NCBI RefSeq assembly: GCF_016785085.1
Contig: NZ_JAENHO010000001.1
Coordinates: forward strand, 806,001-870,000
Reading direction: 5' to 3'
Length of the DNA: 64,000 bases
DNA from: Paractinoplanes lichenicola
Lineage (GTDB): Bacteria; Actinomycetota; Actinomycetes; Mycobacteriales; Micromonosporaceae
The position numbers and the translations under genes were made by a program. Below the pieces are notes generated by a model, which was given only the letters and a program-made list of their open reading frames with translations, searched no databases and had not been told where the DNA came from. Shown in pieces: positions 2,421 to 47,968 of the stretch (position 1 is its first letter; every line of letters begins with the position of its first letter).

Positions 2421-3674
2421 TCACGAAGCTTTCCCCGCGCCCACCGGGACGGGCAGACCCGCCGGCACCCGGGTCCGCTCGGCCCAGCGCACGGCCGGAC
2501 CGCTCGCGGCCAGCAGGCCGAGGAACAGGCCGCCGATCAGCAGCCAGCCCAGCCCGCCGAACCGGTCGGGCACCGCGGTGACCAGGGCCGGCCCGGCGAT
2601 CAGGGCGAAGGCGTCGCCGGTGGCGAAGGCGCCCAGATATTCGCCCTGCACGTTCGCCGGGGCCAGCTCGTACCGCAGCCCCCAGCGGGCGGCCTCGCCC
2701 CAGATCTCGCCGAAGGTGAACAGCACCGCGGCGCCCAGGAGCACAACGGCGGACGCCCACCCGGGCAGGGCTCCGGTCACTGCGGTGACACCACAGGCGA
2801 CGGCCAGCACCACCGCGGTCAGCCGCTGCAGCCGGGCCGCACCCCGTACGGTGTCCGCGTCACGCGCCATCCGCACCTGGAGGAACACCACCATCAGCGT
2901 GTTGATCAGCATGATCCAGGCGGCCAGGGCGCGCGGGGCGTCGGTCTGCACCACCAGCCACAGCGGCAGGCCCACGGCGAGCGCGGTCGGCCCGATCCGG
3001 GCGATCCCGGCGAGCTGGGCGACCAGCAGGTAGGGGACGTCGCGGACAGCGGCACGCGGCTGCTGGTCGCGGGGCGCGCGCGGAATGCCCGGCACCCGCG
3101 GCAGCCGCAGATAGAGCCCGGCCACCAGCACCATGGCCAGCGCGTTGCCCCACAACAGGGCGAGGTAGGCCGGTCTCGAGTCGGCCGCGATGACCAGGCC
3201 CGCGGCCAGCGCGGCCAGCGAGAAGCCGCCGTTGAAGACGCTGCGCATGTACGCCGAGATCCACACCCGGCCCTCCCGGCCCATCACCCCCGACACCAGC
3301 GCGTCGCGGGAGACGTTGCCGCTCTGCTCGAACAATCCGAGGACCACCGACATCGCCAGGTAGGCCCAGAGCGACTGCACGAAGACCGCCGCCACCAGCG
3401 CGGCCGCCTTGCCGAGCACGAACAGCGCGCTGACCTCGCGCGGCCCGATCCGGTCGGCCAGCTTGCCGGCGGGCACGCCCAGCGCCAGCGCCACGATGCC
3501 GGCCAGCGACAGGCCGAGACCCACCTGCCCGGCCGACAAGCCCACGACCTGAACGAAGTAGACGGCGCCGCCGGTGACGTAGAGTCCGTTGCCGAGGCTG
3601 GCCACGGCGGTGCAGAGCACGAGCACCCGGCCGGGGCCGGGGTCGGGCAGCAGACGGGAGATCAGGCGACGCAC
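2421..3674 (-). CDS. MFS transporter, 12-helix type
   Basis: A 417-residue integral membrane protein with about twelve hydrophobic segments and the motif-A-like loop GKLADRIGPRE between helices 2 and 3, typical of major facilitator drug or metabolite exporters. The chosen start is a GTG at 3674, preceded by GAGG eight bases upstream. The frame stays open to a TTG at 3716, but that codon has no ribosome-binding site and would coincide with the divergent TrmO-like start. It could export a peptide or another cluster product, but nothing in the sequence shows the substrate. It lies between the SagB-like gene and the Trp-repeat peptide cassette, separated from the cassette by one plus-strand gene. 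Confidence 0.8.
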   Translation of the reverse strand: MRRLISRLLPDPGPGRVLVLCTAVASLGNGLYVTGGAVYFVQVVGLSAGQVGLGLSLAGIVALALGVPAGKLADRIGPREVSALFVLGKAAALVAAVFVQSLWAYLAMSVVLGLFEQSGNVSRDALVSGVMGREGRVWISAYMRSVFNGGFSLAALAAGLVIAADSRPAYLALLWGNALAMVLVAGLYLRLPRVPGIPRAPRDQQPRAAVRDVPYLLVAQLAGIARIGPTALAVGLPLWLVVQTDAPRALAAWIMLINTLMVVFLQVRMARDADTVRGAARLQRLTAVVLAVACGVTAVTGALPGWASAVVLLGAAVLFTFGEIWGEAARWGLRYELAPANVQGEYLGAFATGDAFALIAGPALVTAVPDRFGGLGWLLIGGLFLGLLAASGPAVRWAERTRVPAGLPVPVGAGKAS

Positions 3675-3715
3675 GGCCGGCACCTCACTGAGACTGAACA
3701 GGAAACGGGGAGGCA

Positions 3716-4168
3716 ATGGAACCGATCAAACCCATCGGCTTCGTCCGCGGCGGACGCGAGCGGGTCTTCGAGGACGGCTGGGGGCCGGTGGTCTCGCGGA
3801 TCGAGCTGGACCCGGCCGTGTTCGACGAGTCGGCGACCATGGGCCTCGACGACTACTCGCACGTCGAGGTCGTCTTCGCGTTCCACCTGGCCACCCGCAC
3901 GTGCACCGGCACCCAGCATCCGCGGGGCAACACCGCCTGGCCGCCGTCGGGCATCCTGGCCCAGCGCGCGCCCAACCGGCCCAACCACCTCGGGGTGTCC
4001 GTGTGCGGGCTCGCGGGCGTCGACGGGCTGACGCTGACCGTGCACGGGCTCGACGCCCTCGACGGCTCCCCCGTGCTCGACGTGAAGCCGTATCTGCCCG
4101 AGTTCGGCCCGCGCGGCGAGGTGCGGGGCCCGGCGTGGTCGCGTGAGCTGATGCGCGATTACTTCTGA
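3716..4168 (+). CDS. trmO: TrmO/TsaA-family tRNA N6-methyltransferase
   Basis: A 150-residue protein of the TsaA/TrmO family. Family members use SAM to N6-methylate the threonylcarbamoyl-adenosine at position 37 of tRNA. Visible family features are the N-terminal beta-barrel start PIGFVR, the RPNHLGVSV block and the C-terminal DVKPYLPEF motif that completes the SAM site. Length is typical for single-domain bacterial members. The ATG at 3716 follows GGGGAGG with short spacing. The gene is divergent from the MFS gene and converges on the flavin monooxygenase. It reads as an ordinary gene inserted between two candidate peptide-related units. Confidence 0.85.
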   Translation: MEPIKPIGFVRGGRERVFEDGWGPVVSRIELDPAVFDESATMGLDDYSHVEVVFAFHLATRTCTGTQHPRGNTAWPPSGILAQRAPNRPNHLGVSVCGLAGVDGLTLTVHGLDALDGSPVLDVKPYLPEFGPRGEVRGPAWSRELMRDYF

Positions 4169-4176
4169 GCGTCGGC

Positions 4177-5661
4177 TCACGGCAGGGCCACCAGGTCGGT
4201 GCGGGCCGCGGCGATCAGGGTGTTGGCCTCGTCGCGGGGCAGCTCCTCGTCGACCAGCAGCGCGATCGGCAGCCCGGACTGGCTGCGGATCCGGGCCGCG
4301 GGGGCGCTCCGGGTCACCCGGCCGCCCTCCGGCCGGGCCCGCACCGCGAGGAAGTCGATGCCCGGCAACAAACCGTCCGGGGTCCGGTCCACGACCAGTC
4401 CCACCGCCTGGGTGCCGTCGGCGCCGCGCAGCACGCACCGGCCGTCCCGGCGTTCCAGCGCGACGAGCCGGTGCCCCAGGCGCACCCGGCCCACCGTCAG
4501 CGGCACGTCGACCGGCTCGGCGTCGGTGGGGTGACCGGCCAGCCGGGCCACGGTGCGCGCGACGAACTCCGGATCCCGCTCGCGCAGCCGGCTGAATGTG
4601 TTGGCCGCCCGGCGGCTGCGCAGCGCGAAGACCGTCTGGTGCCCGTGCAGCCGCTCGCCGCGGCAGAACTGCTCGAACCACGCGGTGCTCTCGGCCGCCT
4701 CCGCCTGCATCCGCTCGGCGATCGGCCGCCGTACGCTGTCGTACTCGGCCACCGCATCGAGCGGGTCGTCGTGCGCGGCGACGGAACGGGCCAGGCACAA
4801 CGCGTCGTCGATGGCCAGGGCGGTGCCCGAGCCGGTCGAGAAGTGCACCGTGTGCGCGGCGTCGCCGGCCAGCACCGTCCGGCCGGCCGACCAGCGGCGG
4901 TTGACGACCGTACGGAAGGCTTGCCAGCCCGCCGTCCGGGCCGTCAGCGGGGCGCCGCCCAGCTCGGCGCGGAAGATCGTGGCCAGCTCGCGCTCCGCCT
5001 CGGCGGCCGGCCGGTCGAGCAGCCCCAGGGCGGTCAGGGTGCCCGGGTCGGCCTCGACGATGAAGGTGCTCTCGCCGGCCGCGTGCGGATAGGCGTGCAC
5101 CACCAGGGGGCCCGGCCCGAACTCCTTGATGAGGAAGCACGGTTCGAGCACCGTGGGCGTGCTCAGCCACAGATAGCGGGTGGCGCCCGCGGTGACCGAG
5201 GTGCCGAACTGCTCGGCGCGCTGCTGACGAAGCACACTCCCGGCGCCGTCGGCCAGCACCACCAGATCCGCCGGCTCGGGCGTCGCGGTGACGGTGCGCC
5301 GGATCAGCCGGACGTTGGGCCGGCGCGCGGCCAGGGTGCGGACGTGCTCGTGGAAGACGTGCCGCGAGATCCCCGACATGCCGAAGGCGCCGGACGGGAT
5401 CCGTTCGCCGTCGATCGACGTGATCGTCTCGTCCCAGGTGGCGTACGCGGATTCGGGCAGCCGCAGCGCCTCGGGGTGGACGGCCCGCACCTGCCGGGCG
5501 ACCTCGTCGGCCAGCACGATGCCGGCCCCCGGCCCGCGGTCCTCACGGTCGTAGAGGTCGACGGTCACGTCCGGGAGCAGCCGGGCCAGCTCCAGCGCGC
5601 AGAAGGCGCCCGCGGGGCCCCCGCCCACCACGGCCACCGTACGGACTCCGGGGCCGCTCAT
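4177..5661 (-). CDS. FAD-dependent aromatic monooxygenase, VioD/anthraniloyl-CoA hydroxylase-like
   Basis: A 494-residue flavoprotein of the p-hydroxybenzoate hydroxylase fold. It has a Rossmann GGGPAG at residues 13-18 and a flavin-binding GDAAHTVHFSTGSG motif in the second half. The style of both motifs is closest to the subgroup holding the violacein indole hydroxylase VioD and salicylyl/anthraniloyl-CoA hydroxylases. It is longer than VioD, with about 100 extra C-terminal residues. The ATG at 5661 overlaps the haemoglobin stop by 4 bases (ATGA), so the two are translationally coupled. It is the last gene of the minus-strand cassette headed by the Trp-repeat peptide. Inference: hydroxylation of the indole rings of that peptide. 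Family certain, substrate unknown. Confidence 0.8.
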   Translation of the reverse strand: MSGPGVRTVAVVGGGPAGAFCALELARLLPDVTVDLYDREDRGPGAGIVLADEVARQVRAVHPEALRLPESAYATWDETITSIDGERIPSGAFGMSGISRHVFHEHVRTLAARRPNVRLIRRTVTATPEPADLVVLADGAGSVLRQQRAEQFGTSVTAGATRYLWLSTPTVLEPCFLIKEFGPGPLVVHAYPHAAGESTFIVEADPGTLTALGLLDRPAAEAERELATIFRAELGGAPLTARTAGWQAFRTVVNRRWSAGRTVLAGDAAHTVHFSTGSGTALAIDDALCLARSVAAHDDPLDAVAEYDSVRRPIAERMQAEAAESTAWFEQFCRGERLHGHQTVFALRSRRAANTFSRLRERDPEFVARTVARLAGHPTDAEPVDVPLTVGRVRLGHRLVALERRDGRCVLRGADGTQAVGLVVDRTPDGLLPGIDFLAVRARPEGGRVTRSAPAARIRSQSGLPIALLVDEELPRDEANTLIAAARTDLVALP

Positions 5662-6191
5662 GCCGGGGTCCCGTCCCAGTGGAACCGCTCGCGGCGAACC
5701 AGCGCGGCGCCCCGCGACACCGCGGTCATCTCGCCGCTGGCCACCTTCATGATGGTGAGGAACTCGCCGAAGTGCGGCTCGGGCGCGTCGAGCTGGGTGC
5801 CGGCCTCCCGCATCAGGGCCAGCCAGCGCAGCCGCTGCTCGCGGGTGATCAAAAAGTGCGCGTGGGCCCGGTGCATCCTCGGGTCCCAGGCCGCGGTCAG
5901 GTCGTTCTCGCCGTAGATGCGGCGGAAGTGGTCGTAGAGCCGGGCCGCGTGGCGCTCCCAGTCGGGCACGGCGAAGAGCGGGCGCAGCACCTCGTCCTGC
6001 GCCACGAGCTCGTAGAACCGGGTGGTGAGGGCCTGGAAGAAGCCGGCCCCGCCGATCCCGGTCCAGAAGTCGGAAACCTTCCGGTCGACCTGGGCCGCGC
6101 TCATCTGCTCGCCGGACTGCAGGCCCTGGTCGGCGACGAGGAGCACTTTTCCGTCGTGGCGGGGGGCCGGGGTGATTGGCCTGGGCGACAT
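5658..6191 (-). CDS. Truncated haemoglobin, group II (GlbO-like)
   Basis: A 177-residue haem protein. Residues 38-135 show the short 2-over-2 globin fold: FF-x7-FY with the B10 Tyr at 60, DEVLRPLF, the probable proximal His at 110 in RAHAHF, and the G8 Trp at 123 typical of group II. A roughly 30-residue N-terminal extension precedes the globin; the ATG at 6191 is supported by GGAG seven bases upstream. Housekeeping GlbO is usually monocistronic. Here the gene sits 12 bases after a FemAB-like gene and overlaps a flavin monooxygenase. That placement suggests a tailoring or redox role, such as oxygen or peroxide activation on the peptide substrate. An ordinary oxygen or NO-handling role remains possible. 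Confidence 0.85.
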   Translation of the reverse strand: MSPRPITPAPRHDGKVLLVADQGLQSGEQMSAAQVDRKVSDFWTGIGGAGFFQALTTRFYELVAQDEVLRPLFAVPDWERHAARLYDHFRRIYGENDLTAAWDPRMHRAHAHFLITREQRLRWLALMREAGTQLDAPEPHFGEFLTIMKVASGEMTAVSRGAALVRRERFHWDGTPA

Positions 6192-6203
6192 CTGCGTACT
6201 CCT

Positions 6204-7283
6204 TCAGTCGGGTCGGTCGAGCAGCAGGCCCGCGGCGGACAACATGCTGACGGTGCAGCCGCGCAGCTTCTTGGCCTGGACGGTGCCGAGCCCGTAGGCG
6301 ATCGTGGTGATCCCCTGCGCGGGGGCCAGCTCGGCCGGGCGGTAGAAGACCGTGGCGAAGTAGGTGAACGAGGCGTCGGGATGGGTGTAGTCGGTGCCGC
6401 TCATCAGCACGGTCCACTGGTCGCCGTCGCGCACCAGCATCGCGAAGGAGAGCAGCGCGCCCCGCTTGCGGGCCTCGACGATCCAGACGTTCTCCGGTCC
6501 GAAGTGGTCGCGCAGATGCCGGAACGAGTCGGCCTCGCGCCGGGCGTCGGGCACCCCGCCGTACTTGGTGACCAGCTGGGCCCGCAGCGGGAGGAGGTCG
6601 GGCTCCTCGGCCTCGATCGGGCGCTCGCGGATCTCGATGCCCCGGGCCGCGATCTCGCGCAGCTCGCGCCGCACCGCGAAACGCTGATTGCGGCGCAGCC
6701 CGGCGATGTAGCCGTCCAGGTCGTCCCAGGTGACGTCCATGTCGCTGCGGTCCACCATCGGGACCACCGTGAACCCGGCCTCCCGCAGCACGTCGAGGAA
6801 CTCGGGATAGTCGGGGCGCAGGAACAGCGCCGACACGCTGCGCACGCCCTGGTCGCGGCACCAGTCGAGCTGGGCCTCGAGATAGGCCCGCAGCACCCGC
6901 GGATCGCGGGCGCCCGGACCGACCGGGGCCGACTCGTAGTTGGTGCCCATCAGCACGCAGGCCGGGAACAGCTGCTCGGCCGGGCGCCCCTGCCACGGGT
7001 GCGGTCCGTCGGCGACCACGCCGTCGGCGACCGAGCCGCCCGACAGCACCCGCTGCGGGTCGAAACGCACGTGCCCGGTGGGGCCCTCCATCACCCCGCC
7101 GACCAGGGCCACCTGGTCGCCGCCGGGGCCGGGCAGCGCGAAGGTGCGGGCGCCGCCGGGGATCCGGCTGTCGGCCAGCGAGATCCAGCGCCGGCGCAGG
7201 GTGACCGGGGCGCTGCCGATCCAGCCGTCCCAGCTCTCGGGGATCTCGGTCCGCACGGACAGCCGGGCGGTGGACAACGTCAC
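6204..7283 (-). CDS. FemAB/GNAT-fold acyl- or aminoacyl-transferase-like protein
   Basis: A 359-residue protein resembling the FemAB-like tandem-GNAT families. The C-terminal half carries LPLRAQLVTKYGG, SFRHLRDHFGPENVWIVEA, then a strand with GALLSFAML and FTYFATVFY, the pattern of a GNAT core. Relatives transfer amino acids from tRNA or acyl groups from CoA onto amines. The start is a GTG at 7283 preceded by GGGAG five bases upstream; the frame stays open to 7331 without a better site. It follows the Trp-repeat peptide gene by 85 bases and precedes the haemoglobin by 12. The cassette position suggests that it modifies the peptide, perhaps N-acylation or amino-acid addition. Its substrate cannot be read from the sequence. 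Confidence 0.6.
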   Translation of the reverse strand: MTLSTARLSVRTEIPESWDGWIGSAPVTLRRRWISLADSRIPGGARTFALPGPGGDQVALVGGVMEGPTGHVRFDPQRVLSGGSVADGVVADGPHPWQGRPAEQLFPACVLMGTNYESAPVGPGARDPRVLRAYLEAQLDWCRDQGVRSVSALFLRPDYPEFLDVLREAGFTVVPMVDRSDMDVTWDDLDGYIAGLRRNQRFAVRRELREIAARGIEIRERPIEAEEPDLLPLRAQLVTKYGGVPDARREADSFRHLRDHFGPENVWIVEARKRGALLSFAMLVRDGDQWTVLMSGTDYTHPDASFTYFATVFYRPAELAPAQGITTIAYGLGTVQAKKLRGCTVSMLSAAGLLLDRPD

Positions 7284-7368
7284 GACAACTCCCTTCCGGC
7301 CGTGCGGCGGGTCCGTCCGGCCCGGCAGCACACAGGACTGCCGGGCCGGACGGGCGGTGGGTCGATCG

Positions 7369-7617
7369 TCAGGCCGCCTGCAGCGCCTGCGCCCGGTCCC
7401 AGACCGACAGGTCCTCGTTGAACCGGTCCCACACCTCGTCGGTGCGGTCCCAGACCGTGAGGTCCTCGGAAGCGCGGTCCCAGACCTCGTCGGCCCGGTC
7501 CCACACCTCGCCGGCCCGGTCCCACACCGGCAGGTCCCACACCGTGCGGTCCGCGGTGATCCGGTCCCACACCTCGAGCTCGTCGGCCGACAGTTGGATT
7601 ACCTTCGAGTCGCGCAT
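7369..7617 (-). CDS. Trp-repeat peptide (eight Val-Trp-Asp motifs), candidate RiPP precursor
   Basis: An 82-residue peptide. Residues 1-15 (MRDSKVIQLSADELE) look like a short leader. The rest is tandem VWDR units with Trp at 17, 27, 32, 39, 46, 56, 63 and 73, so most spacings are 7 or 10. Two unit types recur: a 7-mer VWDR-x-x-E and a 10-mer VWDR ending in Asp-Leu/Arg-Ser/Thr. One unit is degenerate (VWDLP). The tail is AQALQAA. The ATG at 7617 has AAGGGA upstream, and third codon positions are almost all G/C in this frame, unlike the alternative frames across the repeats. It heads a unit with transferase-like, haemoglobin and flavin hydroxylase genes. Multi-core precursor is inferred; a coiled structural protein is the alternative. 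Confidence 0.65.
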   Translation of the reverse strand: MRDSKVIQLSADELEVWDRITADRTVWDLPVWDRAGEVWDRADEVWDRASEDLTVWDRTDEVWDRFNEDLSVWDRAQALQAA

Positions 7618-7789
7618 GCAGCATCCCTTCGAGGATTTTCCAGAAGGCGATCCGCCGGACCGCCGAGAACCGGCCCTCGCCGCTCTCGTAAAAGAGCTTC
7701 GCAGCCTGAGTCACGACGTGTCTTCTCCTCAATTGCTGACTTACCGAAAGCGAATCGCGAGCCATTTCTGGAATTGCGCTGGACGACGC

Positions 7790-8518
7790 TCAACAAATAC
7801 TTGAATCCGCTCGACGGCCGCTTGAACCCGGCTGGAGAGCGGGCTCCTCGAGGCCCGGCACGGCGAACAGGACGGGCGGCTGCGACCAGTCCCGGGGGCA
7901 CAGCACCAGGTCCACCTCCGGGCCGGCGCACGGTTCGACGGGCAGCGGTCCCAGCGTGGCCGTGAACAGCACACCCCCGGCCCGCATGGCCGCGTGCAGA
8001 TACCACATCCCGTACGGGACCTGGTGCAACACGAAGGGGCCGGGGTGCTCGAGGGTGGCCCAGCTCGACGGCCGCCCCTGCAGGATGGGGCTGTCGAAGG
8101 TGCCGATCGAGACCGGCGAGCGGGCCGCGGCCCGGGCCACGCCGCGCACCGGCCGCCCGCCCGGGTCGCCCACGGCCCGTACGGGGAAATCGCCCGCGCC
8201 CCGGCTCACCTGCCGATAACGCACGGGCGGAATACCCACCGACTCGGTGAAGCGGCTCGTGAAACTGCCCGTGCTGCTGTATCCGACCAGGCACGCGATC
8301 GCCGCCACGCCGCGGTCGGAATCGCGCAGCAATCGTTTCGCCTCGTCGATGCGAACGGCGCCCAGAAAACGCCCCGGGGTCACTCCGACGGTCTGCCGGA
8401 ATACCCGCAGCAGATGGAACTTGCTGACCAGGGCGGCGCGGGCGACATCGTCGAGGCTGAGGGTCTCCGCATAGCGCTCACGAATGGTCCGTACGGCCCG
8501 TTCCACAATCTGGTCCAT
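7790..8518 (-). CDS. AraC-family transcriptional regulator
   Basis: A 242-residue regulator with the DNA-binding domain at the N-terminus. The AraC double helix-turn-helix covers about residues 3-105: LSLDDVARAALVSKFHLLRVF, then the second helix VGYSSTGSFTSRF and the GIPPVRYRQ end. A C-terminal region of about 130 residues has no family I recognise and may sense a ligand. The ATG at 8518 has GGAAGG upstream with somewhat long spacing. It is the last gene of a minus-strand operon, 20 bases after the PIG-L deacetylase. Its stop lies 172 bases before the Trp-repeat peptide start, so it is well placed to control that cassette. The spacer is less GC-rich than the genes, as expected for a promoter. 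Confidence 0.85.
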   Translation of the reverse strand: MDQIVERAVRTIRERYAETLSLDDVARAALVSKFHLLRVFRQTVGVTPGRFLGAVRIDEAKRLLRDSDRGVAAIACLVGYSSTGSFTSRFTESVGIPPVRYRQVSRGAGDFPVRAVGDPGGRPVRGVARAAARSPVSIGTFDSPILQGRPSSWATLEHPGPFVLHQVPYGMWYLHAAMRAGGVLFTATLGPLPVEPCAGPEVDLVLCPRDWSQPPVLFAVPGLEEPALQPGSSGRRADSSIC

Positions 8519-8538
8519 ACCGATGGGGACCTTCCGGG

Positions 8539-9270
8539 TCAGATGCCGATGATCTCGAAGGGCATCGCCGGCACGTGGCCGAAGCGCTCGCCGAACCGGG
8601 TGAGCTTGGTCGTGAGATAGCCGGCCACGTCGCCCATCGGGTTGTCCGGGGGCAGCGACGCCAGATAGCCCGCGTGCGCGGCCAGCGCCTCGATCCCGGC
8701 GGCCAGCCCGTCGGTGACGTCGACGGCGTGCCCCGACTCCGGGGAACCGCCGACGGCCAGGAACCGTACGCCGGACCAGGGCTCGAGGCCCTCGTCGGCG
8801 AGCTCGGGGAAGACCCAGGGGTTGCCGGCGTCGTTGGCCGCGTCGAGCAGCGCGACGCCGACGTTGCGATGGTCGGCCGTGTTCCAGTCGCCGCTGCGCC
8901 ACCGCTCGTAGAAGTTGATGGTGACCAGGATGTCGGGGCGGTACTTGCGGATCGACCGGGCGAGGTCCCGGCGCAGCGGCAAGCCGTATTCGATGGTGCC
9001 GTCCGGGTGGTCGAGGAAGTCCACGTCGTGCACCCCGACCGCGGCCGCGGCCCGCAGTTGCTCCGCCGAGCGCATCTCGCCCGTGTCGGCCGGCTTCATG
9101 GTGGCGATCCCGGCCTCGCCCCGGCTCACCACGGCGTAGGCGACGAACTTGCCCTCCGCCGTCCACCGGGCGATCGCGCAGGCCGGGCCGTACTCCAGGT
9201 CGTCGGGGTGCGCGACGACGCAGAGCACCCGCTGCCAGTCCGCCGGCATCGGCTCGTACGGCTGGGTCAT
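8539..9270 (-). CDS. PIG-L/LmbE-family deacetylase
   Basis: A 243-residue zinc hydrolase of the PIG-L family, which removes acetyl or other acyl groups from amino sugars and related amines. The metal-binding AHPDD motif is near residue 20, with the downstream ADHRNVG motif supplying the third zinc ligand. Relatives include mycothiol MshB, Mca and antibiotic deacetylases. The start is an ATG at 9270 preceded by GGAGG and overlapping the hydrolase stop by 4 bases (ATGA). It could deprotect an N-acylated intermediate or the aminosugar of the polyketide, or deal with mycothiol conjugates. The substrate is inferred only from context. Confidence 0.8.
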   Translation of the reverse strand: MTQPYEPMPADWQRVLCVVAHPDDLEYGPACAIARWTAEGKFVAYAVVSRGEAGIATMKPADTGEMRSAEQLRAAAAVGVHDVDFLDHPDGTIEYGLPLRRDLARSIRKYRPDILVTINFYERWRSGDWNTADHRNVGVALLDAANDAGNPWVFPELADEGLEPWSGVRFLAVGGSPESGHAVDVTDGLAAGIEALAAHAGYLASLPPDNPMGDVAGYLTTKLTRFGERFGHVPAMPFEIIGI

Positions 9271-10163
9271 GACGCCTCCCCGGCGGCCTGCAGGCACTCC
9301 TCGAAGAAGGCGAACGCGCGCAGGTGATAGGTGCGGGCGGCCCGGCCGAGGCTGATGTTGTGGCCCGCGCCCGGCTGATGCTCGATCCGCAGCAGGGGCG
9401 CCTTGACCAGCCGGGCCACCAGGTCGTCGACGTCCGCCTGCTCGTGCTGCCACCACGTCTCGTGCTCGGCGAACGTCAGCCGCAGCGGGATGTCGATCCG
9501 CGGCGCCAGCTCCTCGAACATCTCGGGCCAGAGCGGCACCTCGGCGCCCTCCCGCTCGGGGACGGGGGCGACCAGCGCCTGGGCCGCGCGGAAGGTGCCC
9601 GGGGCGTACAGGCCCAGCGGCCCCCAGTTGCGCTCGAAGTCGAGGTGGCGGCGCGCTCCCTTCCGCTCCGACGGGGCGACGCCGTAGTGGTGACCGACGC
9701 CGGACGCGTCGAGGGCGAGCACACCCGGGTGGTCCGCGACGGTCGTCAGGGCGAGCTTGCCCCCGTACGAGTGGGCCAGCATCAGGAATCCCGCGCCGGT
9801 GTCGTAGCGCCGGGCGAACGCCTCGAGGGCCCCGGACACCACCACCGACTGCTCGGCCAGGGTCATGCCCCCGGGCAACTGCGCCGCCGACCAGCCGTAG
9901 CCGGGGCGGTCCAGGGCCAGCACCGTGAAGCCGAGCCGGGCCCCCAGCGTGAGCAGGGACAGGTCGGGGTGGACCTGGCCGTCGAAGTAGCCCGAGCGCA
10001 TGCCGCCACCGTGCACGGCGACGACGGTCGCCCGCGGCGGACCACCCGGCGGCTCGGCCAGCAGGCCGGACAGCGTCAGGCCACCGGTCTCGAGGAGGAG
10101 CGGGCGCACCCCGGCCGAGTGGGCCGGCAACGTCTTCTTCCGGTCTGTCCTGGCAACGCTCAT
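9267..10163 (-). CDS. Alpha/beta hydrolase
   Basis: A 298-residue alpha/beta-hydrolase. It has an oxyanion HGGG near residue 52, the nucleophile elbow AHSYGG near residue 130 and a C-terminal GAGHNIS supplying the catalytic His. There is no signal peptide, so it is cytosolic. It heads the minus-strand operon with the PIG-L deacetylase and AraC regulator. It is divergent from the adenylation-aminomutase operon, from which it is separated by about 200 bases holding a SARP-type operator. Possible roles are release of a polyketide chain, removal of a protecting group from a beta-amino acid starter (as an aminoacyl hydrolase does in some macrolactam pathways), or editing. None is shown directly. 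Confidence 0.75.
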   Translation of the reverse strand: MSVARTDRKKTLPAHSAGVRPLLLETGGLTLSGLLAEPPGGPPRATVVAVHGGGMRSGYFDGQVHPDLSLLTLGARLGFTVLALDRPGYGWSAAQLPGGMTLAEQSVVVSGALEAFARRYDTGAGFLMLAHSYGGKLALTTVADHPGVLALDASGVGHHYGVAPSERKGARRHLDFERNWGPLGLYAPGTFRAAQALVAPVPEREGAEVPLWPEMFEELAPRIDIPLRLTFAEHETWWQHEQADVDDLVARLVKAPLLRIEHQPGAGHNISLGRAARTYHLRAFAFFEECLQAAGEAS

Positions 10164-10256
10164 GGGTGGTCCTTGTCGGTCGGCAGTTCAGGCGAGCCGA
10201 CGCTAGGCCGCTCCCCTCGCGCTGCGCTGGAGCTGCCTCTCTCGGCGCCCCGACCT

Positions 10257-10316
10257 GGCAGTACACCCCGGATCAAGACCGGCTCCAGTCCCGCGCCCAA
10301 CCCCTTGTCCCACAGT
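10257..10316 (+). promoter_or_regulatory. SARP-type operator and promoter of the starter-unit operon
   Basis: After a GGCAGTACACC block (10257-10267) come TCAAGAC at 10273, TCCAGTC at 10284 and a weaker GCCCAAC at 10295, each 11 bases apart. A CACAGT hexamer at 10311, nine bases past the last 7-mer, can serve as the -10. Direct repeats at 11-base spacing in place of a -35 are the hallmark of SARP activator sites. The same arrangement, base for base in spacing, recurs at 18370-18429. Confidence 0.75.
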
Positions 10317-10360
10317 GGATCCAGCTCGCCACCATCGCCGAACGGACAAGGGAGACTTCT

Positions 10361-11947
10361 ATGGAGCCGGACAATCTCTATCGGCTGCTCATGGCGCCCG
10401 CGGCCGCCACGCCGGACCAGCCCGCGGTGGTGCAGCCGGACGAGGACGGCGTCCTGGAGGAGATCTCCTACCGCGCTCTCGACGACCGGATCCGCGAGTA
10501 CGCCACGGTTCTGGACGGCCTGGGCCTCGACGTCGGCGACCGGGTGGTGGTCGAGGCGGACACCTCGGCGGCCGCCGTGGCCATGCTCCTCGCCTGCGCG
10601 AAGCTGGGGCTGCCGTTCGTGCCGGTGAGCCCGCAGACGCCGGATTCCCGGCTGCGCACGATCCTGCAGTCGGTCGGCCCGGCCCTGCACGTACGGGCGG
10701 ACGGCCTCGCGGACCGCGAGCTGGCCGAGGTCGGCGGCCGCGGGCGCTTCGGCCGGGACGGGCTCGTCGTCGAGCTCCCGCCGGTCCGCGGGCCGCGCCG
10801 CCGGCGGGCCGTGCTCGGCACCGACACCGCGTACATCGTCTTCACCTCGGGCTCGACCGGCCGCCCCAAGGGTGTGGTGATGAGCCACCGGTCGATCGTG
10901 ACGTTCCTGCGCGCGATGCGGGCCGACGGCCTGGCCGGGCCCGGCGACCGGGTGGCGAGCACCTCTCCCCTGCAGTTCGACTTCGCGCTGTTCGGGATCG
11001 GCGTGGCCCTCAGCAGCGGCGCCGCCCTCGTGCCGGTCCGGCGCGAGCAGCTCGACTCGCCGCGGCGGATGGTCGCGTTCCTGCGCGAGGCCGAGGTCAC
11101 CCAGGTGCACGGCGTTCCCTCGCTGTGGCGGCCCGTCCTGCGGCACGACCCCGACCTGCTGAGCGGGCTGACCCGGCTGCGCTCGGTGGTCTTCGCGGGC
11201 GAGGAGTTCCCGCTCCCCGAGCTGCGCCGGCTGCAGGAGACGCTGCCCGCGGCCCGCCTCGTCAACGGCTACGGCGCGACCGAGTCGATGGCCGCCTCCT
11301 TCACCGACGTCCCGAACCCGCTGCCGGCCGGGCAGGACCGGCTCTCGATCGGTCACGCCCACACGGGCGCCGAGATGACCCTCGTCGACCAGCACGGCGC
11401 GGCGGTCACCGAGCCGGGCCAGGTCGGGGAGATCTATCTGCGCAGCCCGGCGCTGTTCACCGGCTACTGGAACGATCCCGGCGCCACGGCCGGCGTGCTG
11501 GTGCTCGACCCGATCGAGCCGCGGCACGGGCAAAAGGTGCTCCGCACGGGCGACCTGGCCCGGCTGGGCGAGCAGGGCGAGCTCTACTTCATCGGCCGGG
11601 CCGACTTCCAGGTGCAGATCCGCGGCAACCGGGTCGAGCTGGGCGAGATCGAGGGCACGCTGACCCGCCTGCCCGGCGTCACCGCGGCCGCGGTCAGCCT
11701 GGTGCCGCGGCTGGGCAACCACGTGCTGATGGCCGCCGTCGTCCTCGACGACCCGGCGGCCGGCCTCGACCAGGCCGAGGCGATCGCCTTCTGCGCCAAG
11801 GAGCTGCCCGCCTACATGGTTCCCCGCTCCGTCCACGCCCTGTCCGAGCTGCCCCTGACCGAGAACGGGAAGGTCGATCGCGCTGTCCTCAACCGGACGC
11901 TGGCCGCCCCCCGCAGTGCCCCGAAAGTCCTCGTCACCAACGCTTAG
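10361..11947 (+). CDS. Stand-alone adenylation enzyme (amino-acid activating)
   Basis: A 528-residue ANL-superfamily enzyme with all core motifs: TSGSTGRPKG (A3), FDFALFG (A4, keeping the Asp that normally grips an amino group), NGYGATES (A5), RTGDLARLGE (A7), RGNRVELGEIE (A8) and LPLTENGKVDR with the A10 Lys. There is no fused carrier or condensation domain. The ATG at 10361 follows AAGGGAG. It is the first gene of the operon under the SARP operator and is followed after 9 bases by the phenylalanine aminomutase. That makes beta-phenylalanine the likely substrate, loaded onto the ACP at 14414 as a starter or end unit. Substrate is inferred from context only. Confidence 0.85.
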   Translation: MEPDNLYRLLMAPAAATPDQPAVVQPDEDGVLEEISYRALDDRIREYATVLDGLGLDVGDRVVVEADTSAAAVAMLLACAKLGLPFVPVSPQTPDSRLRTILQSVGPALHVRADGLADRELAEVGGRGRFGRDGLVVELPPVRGPRRRRAVLGTDTAYIVFTSGSTGRPKGVVMSHRSIVTFLRAMRADGLAGPGDRVASTSPLQFDFALFGIGVALSSGAALVPVRREQLDSPRRMVAFLREAEVTQVHGVPSLWRPVLRHDPDLLSGLTRLRSVVFAGEEFPLPELRRLQETLPAARLVNGYGATESMAASFTDVPNPLPAGQDRLSIGHAHTGAEMTLVDQHGAAVTEPGQVGEIYLRSPALFTGYWNDPGATAGVLVLDPIEPRHGQKVLRTGDLARLGEQGELYFIGRADFQVQIRGNRVELGEIEGTLTRLPGVTAAAVSLVPRLGNHVLMAAVVLDDPAAGLDQAEAIAFCAKELPAYMVPRSVHALSELPLTENGKVDRAVLNRTLAAPRSAPKVLVTNA

Positions 11948-45236: not shown

Positions 45237-45707
45237 ATGAGCCACGCCAGGGCCACTGCCAGCCGTAATACCCCCACCTCGGCGCGTATCACCACGGCAG
45301 CCCCCACACGTCCGCTCCTCGTGATCGAAACCCTCGACCACGCCGGCGGCTCCACGATGCTGTTCACCTCCGGCACGGAAGCCACCGCGGCCCAGTTCAC
45401 CTTCTGTGCCCAGGAGGGCCCCACCGACACCGCTCAGTTCACGTTCTGCGCCCAGCCGGGCCCGGCCGACAACGCCCAGTTCACATTCTGTGCGCAGCCG
45501 GGCCCGGCGGACACCCCTGCTTTCACGTTCTGCGCCCAGCCCGGCCCGGCGGAGGCCACGTTCACGTTCTGCGCGCAGCCCGGCCCGGCGGAGGCCGCAT
45601 TCACCTTCTGCGCACAGCCCGGCCCGGATACCACCTCGTTCACGTTCTGCGCCACCGCGTCCACCGTGGCGGCCGAGGGCGAGGCGGTGGCGGAGTCGTG
45701 GATTTGA
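45237..45707 (+). CDS. Cys-repeat RiPP precursor with seven FTFCA cores
   Basis: A 156-residue precursor peptide. Residues 1-50 form a Thr/Ala-rich leader containing RPLLVIETLDHAGG. From residue 51 come seven units of the type FTFCAQPGPAD, with Cys at 57, 71, 85, 99, 112, 125 and 138; spacing is 14,14,14,13,13,13. The first unit has QEGPT, and the last ends in ATASTVAAEGEAVAESWI. GAGG lies nine bases before the ATG at 45237; an in-frame GTG at 45126 has no site. Its end overlaps the YcaO gene by 10 bases, which makes it the obvious substrate. Expected change: Cys to thiazoline in each core. Oxidation to thiazole would need a dehydrogenase not seen next door. Confidence 0.88.
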   Translation: MSHARATASRNTPTSARITTAAPTRPLLVIETLDHAGGSTMLFTSGTEATAAQFTFCAQEGPTDTAQFTFCAQPGPADNAQFTFCAQPGPADTPAFTFCAQPGPAEATFTFCAQPGPAEAAFTFCAQPGPDTTSFTFCATASTVAAEGEAVAESWI

Positions 45708-47968
45708 CTTCGGGTTCCACGACGACCGCCACCCTCGACGACGCCACGCTCGTCGGTTTCCGGCGCCACCTGCGCCCGGCCACCGTCCCGGGCGAGGCGA
45801 CCTACCTGGTCTCCCGCGGGGGGATGACCACCGTGCACGGCACGCTGGCCGACGTGCTGGTCCCGTTGCTCGACGGCACCCGGTCACTCGCCGAGATCCT
45901 GCACGACGCCGCGCCCGCCCTGAACGCCGAGCAGGTGCAGGCGGGGCTGCACCTGCTGCGCGAGGCCGGCCTGCTCCGCTTCGGCAGCCGCGCGCCGGGC
46001 GCCGACCCGGTCGCCGAGGCGTACTGGGACCTGGCCGGCCTGGACGGCGCCCGGGCCGTGGCGGGGCTGGCGACCACCCGGCTCCGGATCCTGCCGCTGG
46101 CCGGCGTCGACGCCGCGCCGGTGCTCGCCGCGGGCGCCGACTCCGGCCTGACCGTGACCGACGCGGACGCGGACCTCACCCTGGTGCTGTGCGACGACTA
46201 CCTCTCCCCGGAGCTGGAGCGGGTCGACGCCGAGCACCGGGCGGCGGGCCGGCCGTGGCTGCTCACCCGGCTGTGCGGCTACGAGCCGTGGGTCGGCCCG
46301 TTCTTCCGGCCCGACGACGGCCCCTGCTGGACGTGCCTGGCCGCCCGGCTCAAGCGGCACCGCGGCTACGACGGTTCGCTGCAGCAGGCCCTGGGCCTCG
46401 ACGGCCCGATCGGCCGGCCGGCCGCCTCGCTGTCGGCGGGTCGCGTGATGGCCACCCAGAGCGCGGTGCTCGAGGCGGCCAAGTGGCTGGCCGGCCTGCG
46501 CTACGCCGATCAGGGCTCGATCCGCACGATGGACACCCTCAACCTGCGCATCGGCGTGCACGCCGTGCCGCGCATCCCGCAGTGCCCGTCCTGCGGCGAC
46601 CCCGGGCTGACCGGCCGGCGCGTGCTCGGGCCGTTCGTCCCGCGGTCGCGGCCCAAGGCCGGGCACGGCGGCAGCGGCCATCGCGCGCTCAGCCCCGATC
46701 AGCTGCTCAAACGGTACGAGCATCTGGTCAGCCCGGTCACCGGGATCGTGCCCGGGCTCGAACCCTCCCCCGGGGCGCCGGAGTTCGCCACCACCTACGT
46801 CTCGGGGCGCAACGTCGCGATGCGGGGCCGGGCCGGGCTGCGCTCGGTCAGCGGCGGCAAGGGCCTGACCGACACCGAGGCCCGCACCAGCGCGCTGTGC
46901 GAGGCGGTCGAGCGGTTCAGCGGCACCCGGCACGGCGACGAGCCGGTCGTGATCGACTCCCTGCGCGGCCTGGGCGAGGCGGCCCTGCACCCCAACACCA
47001 GCCAGCTGTACGCGGACCGGCAGTTCCGCGAGCGGGACAGGTGGAACCGCTCGGGCTCGCCCTTCCACCACGTGCCCGAGCCGTTCGACGAGAACCGGCC
47101 GGTCAAGTGGACGCCCGTGTGGTCGTTGACCGAGCAGCGGCACCGGCTCCTGCCCACGTCGATGCTCTACTTCCCGTCCGGCTCGGCCGCGCCGCAGGGC
47201 CCGTACGCCGACTCCAACGGCAACGCGGCCGGCAGCAGCCCCGAGGACGCCCTGCTGCAGGGCTTCCTGGAGCTGGTGGAGCGGGACGCCGTCGCCCTCT
47301 GGTGGTACAACCGCACCCGGCAGCCCGCGATCGACCTCGGCGCGTTCGACGAGCCGTACATCGAGCGGCTGCGCGACGGCTATCGCAAGCTGGGCCGCGA
47401 GGTGTGGGCGCTGGACCTCACCGCCGACTTCGGCATCCCCGCGATCGTGGCGCTGTCGCGGCGTACGGAGGGGTTCACCGAGGACATCGTGTTCGGCTTC
47501 GGGGCCCACCTCGACCCGGCGATCGCGCTGCGGCGCGCGCTGACCGAGATGGGGCAGCTGCTGCCGGCAGTGGGGGCGGGCCGTGCCGGCGGCGAGTACG
47601 GCATCACCGATCCGCTCCCGGTGCGCTGGTGGCGGCAGGCGACGCTGGCCAACCAGCCGTATCTGATGCCCGACCCCGCCGTCCGGCCCCGGACCCCCGG
47701 CGACTGGAGCTACACGGCCCGCCCGGACCTGCTCGATGACGTCACCGCCATGACCGAGCTGGTTCGCGGCAAGGGCCTGGAGCTGCTCGTCCTCGATCAG
47801 ACCCGCCCGGACGTCGGCCTGCCGGTGGTCAAGGTGATCGTCCCGGGGCTGCGGCACTTCTGGGCCCGGTACGCGCCGGGCCGGCTCTTCGACGTGCCGG
47901 TCGAGCTGGGCCGTCTCGAACGACCCACCCCGTACGAGGAATTGAACCCGATCCCGCTCTTTGTGTGA
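45698..47968 (+). CDS. Fused leader-binding/E1-like and YcaO cyclodehydratase
   Basis: A 756-residue azoline-forming enzyme. About residues 25-100 form a winged-helix recognition element for the leader. Residues 105-300 are an E1-like domain with two Cys pairs (Cys210/Cys213 and Cys296/Cys299) that can bind zinc. From about 360 to the end is a YcaO domain with SGGKG (385-389), ARTSALCEAVERFSG (395-409) and QGFLELVERDAVALWW, which hold ATP and magnesium. The C-terminus ends ELNPIPLFV, close to the Pro-rich tail needed by azoline-forming YcaOs. It starts at a GTG at 45698 within the precursor gene. It would use ATP to cyclise Cys in the FTFCA cores. Confidence 0.93.
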   Translation: MDLTSGSTTTATLDDATLVGFRRHLRPATVPGEATYLVSRGGMTTVHGTLADVLVPLLDGTRSLAEILHDAAPALNAEQVQAGLHLLREAGLLRFGSRAPGADPVAEAYWDLAGLDGARAVAGLATTRLRILPLAGVDAAPVLAAGADSGLTVTDADADLTLVLCDDYLSPELERVDAEHRAAGRPWLLTRLCGYEPWVGPFFRPDDGPCWTCLAARLKRHRGYDGSLQQALGLDGPIGRPAASLSAGRVMATQSAVLEAAKWLAGLRYADQGSIRTMDTLNLRIGVHAVPRIPQCPSCGDPGLTGRRVLGPFVPRSRPKAGHGGSGHRALSPDQLLKRYEHLVSPVTGIVPGLEPSPGAPEFATTYVSGRNVAMRGRAGLRSVSGGKGLTDTEARTSALCEAVERFSGTRHGDEPVVIDSLRGLGEAALHPNTSQLYADRQFRERDRWNRSGSPFHHVPEPFDENRPVKWTPVWSLTEQRHRLLPTSMLYFPSGSAAPQGPYADSNGNAAGSSPEDALLQGFLELVERDAVALWWYNRTRQPAIDLGAFDEPYIERLRDGYRKLGREVWALDLTADFGIPAIVALSRRTEGFTEDIVFGFGAHLDPAIALRRALTEMGQLLPAVGAGRAGGEYGITDPLPVRWWRQATLANQPYLMPDPAVRPRTPGDWSYTARPDLLDDVTAMTELVRGKGLELLVLDQTRPDVGLPVVKVIVPGLRHFWARYAPGRLFDVPVELGRLERPTPYEELNPIPLFV

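Follow-up and report, generated by a model that had tools for sequence, protein, structure and literature searches.

A Val-Trp-Asp repeat peptide gene linked to FemAB-like transferase, truncated haemoglobin and flavin monooxygenase genes in Paractinoplanes lichenicola: a candidate class of ribosomal peptide pathway

The 64,000-nucleotide stretch of Paractinoplanes lichenicola DNA analysed here (the window; contig NZ_JAENHO010000001.1, positions 806,001 to 870,000 of the forward strand) contains a gene for a short peptide in which the tripeptide Val-Trp-Asp (VWD) recurs, standing at the head of a cassette of enzyme genes that may produce a ribosomally synthesized and post-translationally modified peptide (RiPP). 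Four genes follow one another on the same strand in the order peptide, FemAB-like enzyme (Fem), globin and flavoenzyme, with gaps of 85, 12 and -4 bases. A preliminary description of this DNA had reported an 82-residue peptide with eight VWD motifs at the head of four such genes, and both the coordinates and the translation agree with it. These genes, and an inverted repeat behind the first of them, are as follows (L080, L032 and L074 denote the loci in Streptomyces sp. NBC_01003, Streptomyces sp. col6 and genome G480, respectively):

7369..7617, minus strand: VWD-repeat peptide gene, proposed multicore precursor (ATG start; 82 residues; homologues at L080, L032 and L074)
7313..7353, minus strand: inverted repeat of 16 bp, perfect, with a 9-nucleotide loop, between the peptide stop and the Fem start; no T run
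6204..7283, minus strand: FemAB-like/GNAT-type transferase, by Pfam (359 residues; GTG start at 7283)
5658..6191, minus strand: group II truncated haemoglobin, Pfam Bac_globin (177 residues)
4177..5661, minus strand: flavin monooxygenase, Pfam FAD_binding_3 (494 residues; extra C-terminal part)

The eight VWD units of the window peptide are spaced 10, 5, 7, 7, 10, 7 and 10 residues apart, preceded by an N-terminal stretch of 15 residues and followed by a tail of 8, and all eight of its tryptophans fall within them. When the residues of the peptide were shuffled 100,000 times, no shuffle held more than three VWD motifs. The G+C content of the gene by codon position is coding-like (third position 0.96, second position 0.45). 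The peptide has no match in Pfam or NCBIfam, and comparison with PHROGs and PDB gave only matches with E-values of at least 0.06 and at least 1.9, respectively.

Searches with Fem recovered a single locus from the GTDB genome contigs (Streptomyces sp. col6, 79% identity), nine matching records among 72,556 plasmids, one of them strong (Streptomyces sp. NBC_01003, 82.5%), and two loci among 392 genomes from the genus of col6, namely col6 itself and G480 (69%). Among 354 genomes of the family nothing came near the window's own protein, the next best being 39% identical, and scanning 395 genomes related to G480 added none to the known ones, its only matches being G480 and G357. The cassette with a VWD peptide gene before Fem was found in the window, on a plasmid of NBC_01003, in col6 and in G480. 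Identities to the window proteins in NBC_01003, col6 and G480, respectively, are 83%, 79% and 69% for Fem, 89%, 85% and 72% for the globin and 83%, 75% and about 55% for the flavoenzyme. This order of divergence is common to Fem, the globin, the flavoenzyme and the TrmO-like and MFS proteins listed below, and the unit therefore looks co-inherited. Co-occurrence of the repeat peptide with the enzymes and variation in its copy number had been suggested as checks in the preliminary description. Both were observed: the peptide gene lies next to Fem in all four clusters (identities of 69% or more for Fem, 72% or more for the globin and about 55% or more for the flavoenzyme), and there are 8, 10, 12 and 14 VWD copies in the window, NBC_01003, col6 and G480, respectively. 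A short precursor gene kept beside enzyme genes across genomes, which is a criterion for a RiPP pathway, is present in four of four close-orthologue clusters.

The four peptides are 82 (window), 85 (NBC_01003), 133 (col6) and 98 residues long (G480, from an ATG that we picked), the NBC_01003 homologue being the NCBI hypothetical protein WP_331729494.1. They carry 7-16 residues before the first VWD, and their units are spaced 5 to 12 residues apart. Spacers and lengths vary widely, while the V, W and D are constant at all 44 tryptophans, every one of which (44/44) is located in a VWD unit. Variation among the units occurs at third codon positions only, which holds partly by construction as the units were selected by residue. 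Because their Val codons mix GTG and GTC, the DNA is not simply repeated, and it is the protein rather than the DNA that has been kept.

Folding places a stem-loop 3' of the peptide stop in all four clusters, with z-scores of -3.6 in the window, -2.9 in col6, -2.4 in NBC_01003 and -3.4 in G480 (200 dinucleotide shuffles each). An inverted-repeat scan lists it in three of the four, NBC_01003 being the one not listed, and by eye the G480 sequence differs from the others. A stem-loop behind a RiPP precursor gene commonly lifts expression of the precursor over that of the enzymes.

Pfam supports the FemAB, globin and flavoenzyme calls of the preliminary description, Fem narrowly, and the best solved relatives of the latter two are HbO and VioD. 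The globin (PF01152, 48.7 bits) has as its best PDB match 1ngk (E-value: 5.7e-10), which we take to be HbO of M. tuberculosis, a group II truncated haemoglobin. Its Tyr60, His110 and Trp123, presumably the haem pocket residues B10, F8 and G8, are invariant in six of six sequences. By sequence match and predicted haem ligands, the window globin is a group II truncated haemoglobin. The closest solved structure to the flavoenzyme is VioD (8gqr, E-value: 6.5e-30); VioD is an indole hydroxylase. Relatives of the flavoenzyme include, besides VioD, the N-terminal half of salicylyl-CoA 5-hydroxylase. Fem matches FemAB_like at 27.1 bits, barely above the cut-off of 27, and also Acetyltransf_6; searched alone against PDB chains, it gave no match at an E-value of 10. 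Its GTG start agrees with NCBI's start for the NBC_01003 homologue. Lys338 of Fem is invariant in 21 aligned sequences; by extrapolation, the two proteins not being aligned, it lies no more than some five positions from Lys305 of FemX, the residue named in PMC12945691.

The cassette extends beyond these genes on both sides:

2421..3716, minus strand: MFS exporter, by Pfam (69-80% identity in three of three relatives)
3716..4168, plus (opposite) strand: TrmO/TsaA-like S-adenosylmethionine-dependent methyltransferase, by Pfam and NCBIfam
7618..7735, minus strand: conserved 118-base stretch before the peptide start, compared in the window, L032 (col6) and L080 (NBC_01003)
7790..8518, minus strand: AraC-family regulator, by Pfam (also in L080 and L032)
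8539..9270, minus strand: PIG-L family metal-dependent amide hydrolase (best NCBIfam model BshB1, 52.5 bits against a cut-off of 182.5)
9267..10163, minus strand: alpha/beta hydrolase, Abhydrolase_6, with a weaker serine aminopeptidase S33 match (also in L080 and L032)

The four genes named at the outset do occur together, but the unit is not limited to them, since the TrmO-like, MFS and PIG-L genes accompany the peptide, Fem, globin and flavoenzyme genes in all four clusters. The alpha/beta hydrolase and AraC regulator are present in three of the four, the G480 cassette being the one beside which neither was found. The 10.67-Mb window genome has no TrmO_N match other than this TrmO-like gene, and a housekeeping role is therefore unlikely. 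In NBC_01003 there are two pairs of PIG-L and alpha/beta hydrolase genes (L087:40263-41761 and L080:11146-13581); both hydrolases are 76-78% identical to that of the window, while the likeness of the PIG-L proteins (80-81%) was seen via an antisense frame only. The 118-base stretch is a possible regulatory leader. Its differences by frame position among the three sequences are 12/11/7, 9/8/6 and 10/11/6, sequences too few to prove structure, and an Rfam search of positions 3000-11000 gave no match.

We regard as probable, if only just, a reading in which the VWD peptide is a multicore precursor whose tryptophans are hydroxylated and further tailored, with the product released as a small molecule. 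We infer the reactions from what is known of the enzyme families, gene content and conservation alone being observed. The stem-loop behind the gene would allow the VWD precursor to be made in excess, and each Val-Trp-Asp would be one substrate unit. In the predicted order, the flavoenzyme would hydroxylate the Trp indole within the peptide, the globin would oxidise the hydroxyindole further with O2 or peroxide, and Fem would acylate the residue thus activated, with an amino acid (aminoacyl-tRNA being the probable donor) or with some other acyl group. Release of a small product would fall to the PIG-L amidase and the alpha/beta hydrolase, its methylation to the TrmO-like enzyme and its export to the MFS protein. 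A small product fits because the exporter is of the MFS type and no ABC exporter was found by Pfam among the nine proteins of the cassette region (2421-10163). The interpretation given in the preliminary description is partly supported overall; the tryptophans as substrates, and the addition of oxygen to them, are carried over from it as predictions from sequence.

Several observations weigh against this pathway. Only four clusters are known in all, and two of them have their entire surroundings in common. Neither a leader-binding domain nor a classical protease could be recognised, and a RiPP recognition element was absent from the Pfam matches of the nine proteins and from the NCBIfam matches listed. 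The link between Fem and tRNA-dependent enzymes is weak: a 21-sequence Fem profile has as its best PDB match the uncharacterised TTHA1254 (E-value: 0.0005), FemX follows at an E-value of 0.022, which some unrelated chains equal or beat, and an aminoacyl-tRNA-dependent peptide synthase at 0.028, with unrelated chains at a similar level. An AlphaFold2 model of Fem, built from two sequences, is poor (predicted local distance difference test score, 44). The flavoenzyme falls far below the equivalog cut-offs of both the VioD model NF053547 (119 bits against 620) and the salicylyl-CoA 5-hydroxylase model NF006101 (PRK08255; 245 bits against 1078). The role of the globin may be limited to protection or redox supply. 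Finally, genome G262 has Fem twice (39% and 35%), a globin (43%) and a flavoenzyme (36%) in a cluster with phosphoenolpyruvate (PEP)-mutase, nucleotidyltransferase and nucleoside diphosphate kinase-like proteins, and a VWD peptide was not found in 20 kb of it; the three enzymes can therefore work together without the VWD peptide, at least after long divergence. The preliminary description had held that enzymes without the peptide in relatives would count against it: this is the case in the distant G262, whereas the close orthologues keep the peptide in four of four.

The cassette may work, in outline, like the ammosamide pathway. In that pathway, AmmC1 trihydroxylates a peptide-borne Trp, after which come tRNA-dependent ligases and proteolytic release (PMC12424672). 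What the ammosamide and lymphostin (peptide aminoacyl-tRNA ligase, PEARL) pathways share with the cassette is hydroxylation of the Trp of a ribosomal peptide, aminoacyl-tRNA-dependent modification and release of a small molecule, all of which are only proposed for the cassette. Those pathways use LanB-like PEARLs to add Trp to the C-terminus, one unit at a time; the VWD cassette instead encodes its Trp in 8-14 repeats and has a FemAB-like transferase as well as a globin. As the nine cassette-region proteins have no match to PF04738 (LanB-like aminoacyl-tRNA ligase), the cassette is not a PEARL member. FemABX-like GNAT-fold aminoacyl-tRNA transferases do occur in biosynthetic clusters, namely VlmA, PacB, DhpH-C and Orf11 (PMC12945691); these act on small molecules or peptides bound to nonribosomal peptide synthetases, and the window Fem is only weakly FemX-like. 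VioD and salicylyl-CoA 5-hydroxylase belong by sequence to the same flavin monooxygenase family as the window flavoenzyme, which differs, apart from its low scores, in its extra C-terminal part and in having a globin as operon partner.

Fungal dikaritins such as ustiloxin and phomopsin also derive from many short cores per precursor with oxidative tailoring, and involve DUF3328 proteins and Kex2 processing. Many short cores and oxidative tailoring are what the cassette would share with them; the dikaritin enzymes and eukaryotic secretion differ, and we know of no globin in those pathways. Triceptides, which are radical SAM cyclophane peptides, have aromatic three-residue motifs such as W-x-x. 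An aromatic three-residue motif is found in both, but the nine cassette-region proteins have no radical SAM match by Pfam. Exact-word matching in the open literature found no described pathway of this kind, and to our knowledge no RiPP class has a globin, or the combination of a globin, a VioD-like flavoenzyme and a FemAB-like transferase.

The cassette is thus put forward as a candidate RiPP class with a predicted chemistry. Tentatively, and with doubt outweighing confidence, we propose a new class whose peptide-modifying enzymes would include a truncated haemoglobin, its partners being a flavoenzyme of the VioD type and a FemAB-like transferase; every Trp in a VWD precursor with many copies would become a small modified unit, giving 8-14 product molecules per translation event. 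If true, a globin catalysing on a peptide would extend the known roles of haemoglobins, and a precursor with as many as fourteen copies of the same three-residue unit would offer a simple, programmable and high-yield route to a Trp-derived small molecule.

It is unlikely, though worth serious consideration, that the enzymes instead tailor a small molecule, such as a neighbouring polyketide, while the peptide, itself unmodified, binds them through its VWD units as a scaffold, inhibitor or self-protection partner. Polyketide synthase genes adjoin the cassette in the window, NBC_01003 and G480, the flavoenzyme scores best among NCBIfam models with that of salicylyl-CoA 5-hydroxylase, a small-molecule enzyme, and the G262 PEP-mutase cluster has relatives of the three enzymes, no such peptide having been found there. 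The surroundings bear on this. From about -480 to 49380 (~50 kb), the window has counterparts on the NBC_01003 linear plasmid NZ_CP108708.1; 44 of 47 window frames are represented there (by crude gene picking, some of the frames being antisense), arranged as two blocks that have swapped places. The shared cluster holds a Phe aminomutase, an AMP-binding protein, ketosynthases, deoxysugar genes and a YcaO protein, and because it is common to both as a whole, the window and NBC_01003 are not independent settings. In col6, the best relatives of the window's marker proteins are 38% (aminomutase), 34% (YcaO) and 57% identical (ketosynthase), with the context visible only as far as the contig end next to PIG-L; in G480 they are 43%, 30% and 37%, this last ketosynthase adjoining the cassette. 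The cassette is separable from the polyketide cluster, as col6 and G480 lack the marker genes of that cluster, and it occurs in two or more clearly distinct contexts, the window/NBC_01003 cluster and that of G480, col6 being cut by its contig end. The adjoining ketosynthases differ while the peptide is constant, and 8-14 copies of a tripeptide followed by a stem-loop are more what one would expect of a substrate than of a binding partner.

Other distant relatives of Fem are found in G357, G681 and G606 (42%, 39% and 36%, with no globin or flavoenzyme match); a VWD peptide was not found in 20 kb of each. Across 17 searched regions with Fem-like genes, a VWD frame occurs only in L074, the one with close orthologues. 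Another precursor in the distant Fem clusters was also sought, as VWD, Trp-repeat and other repeat frames, and none was convincing save that of L074. A globin search of the 354 family genomes matched 64 including the window; the nearest others are those of G262 (47%) and G282 (45%), and the remainder, 29-39% identical, look housekeeping. PEP-mutase clusters with Fem-like proteins lie at L033 (3522-17228), L075 and L076, the first of which also contains a flavoenzyme, a globin preceded by a DUF6065 protein, and what looks by eye like a P450 sequence.

The VWD peptide gene could alternatively encode a Trp-codon-rich regulatory leader peptide, with ribosomes stalling at low Trp-tRNA and controlling the operon via the stem-loop. 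A Trp-rich frame immediately before a strong stem-loop and enzyme genes is what this would look like. We nevertheless consider it very improbable, as stalling needs Trp codons alone and yet the flanking Val and Asp are fixed, the units extend over 56 to 106 codons in peptides of 82 to 133 residues, and the stem-loops have no T run.

Lower still do we place the chance that the VWD peptide is the precursor for the YcaO protein of the 50-kb cluster rather than for the cassette enzymes. The absence of a nearby YcaO enzyme stated in the preliminary description was mistaken: a SagD-type YcaO protein is encoded at 45698-47968 (plus strand), 38 kb from the VWD cassette, and has a homologue in the NBC_01003 cluster. 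This protein has its own adjacent peptide, VWD contains no Cys, Ser or Thr, and col6 and G480 retain the VWD cassette although their best YcaO matches are as low as noted above. The peptide beside YcaO, just upstream of it, is a second repeat peptide, multicore in appearance, with seven copies of FTFCA (45237-45707, plus strand; open reading frame from 45126), and in its NBC_01003 counterpart (P0002) FTLCAGP occurs twice.

Least credible is a DNA minisatellite open by chance: three-copy VWD DNA patterns are not rare in other genomes, but in the cassettes the spacers vary in sequence and length inside one gene, the gene is at the same place in four of four, and it has coding-like codon-position G+C and two Val codons. 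The three-copy pattern was found in 11 of 393 other genomes of the class and 8 of 66 of the genus, and a backward control pattern in 8 of 394 and 3 of 67, respectively, by our reading of the lists. Sixteen regions were followed up; they come from 15 of the 19 matched genomes, all but G829, G1026, G036 and G048. These regions have no Fem, globin, TrmO, MFS, AraC, PIG-L or hydrolase match at an E-value of 1e-3, and the only flavoenzyme match is a 77-residue stretch in L132 (35%, E-value: 2e-5). As candidate enzyme-free homologues of the peptide they were rejected, since on visual inspection they look like minisatellites or chance matches. In the 9 kb of L134 (genome G1128), where no cassette gene matched, a small frame at 3792-4124 (plus strand) has four DPVWD repeats and, by eye, an apparent signal peptide, and may encode a secreted repeat peptide.

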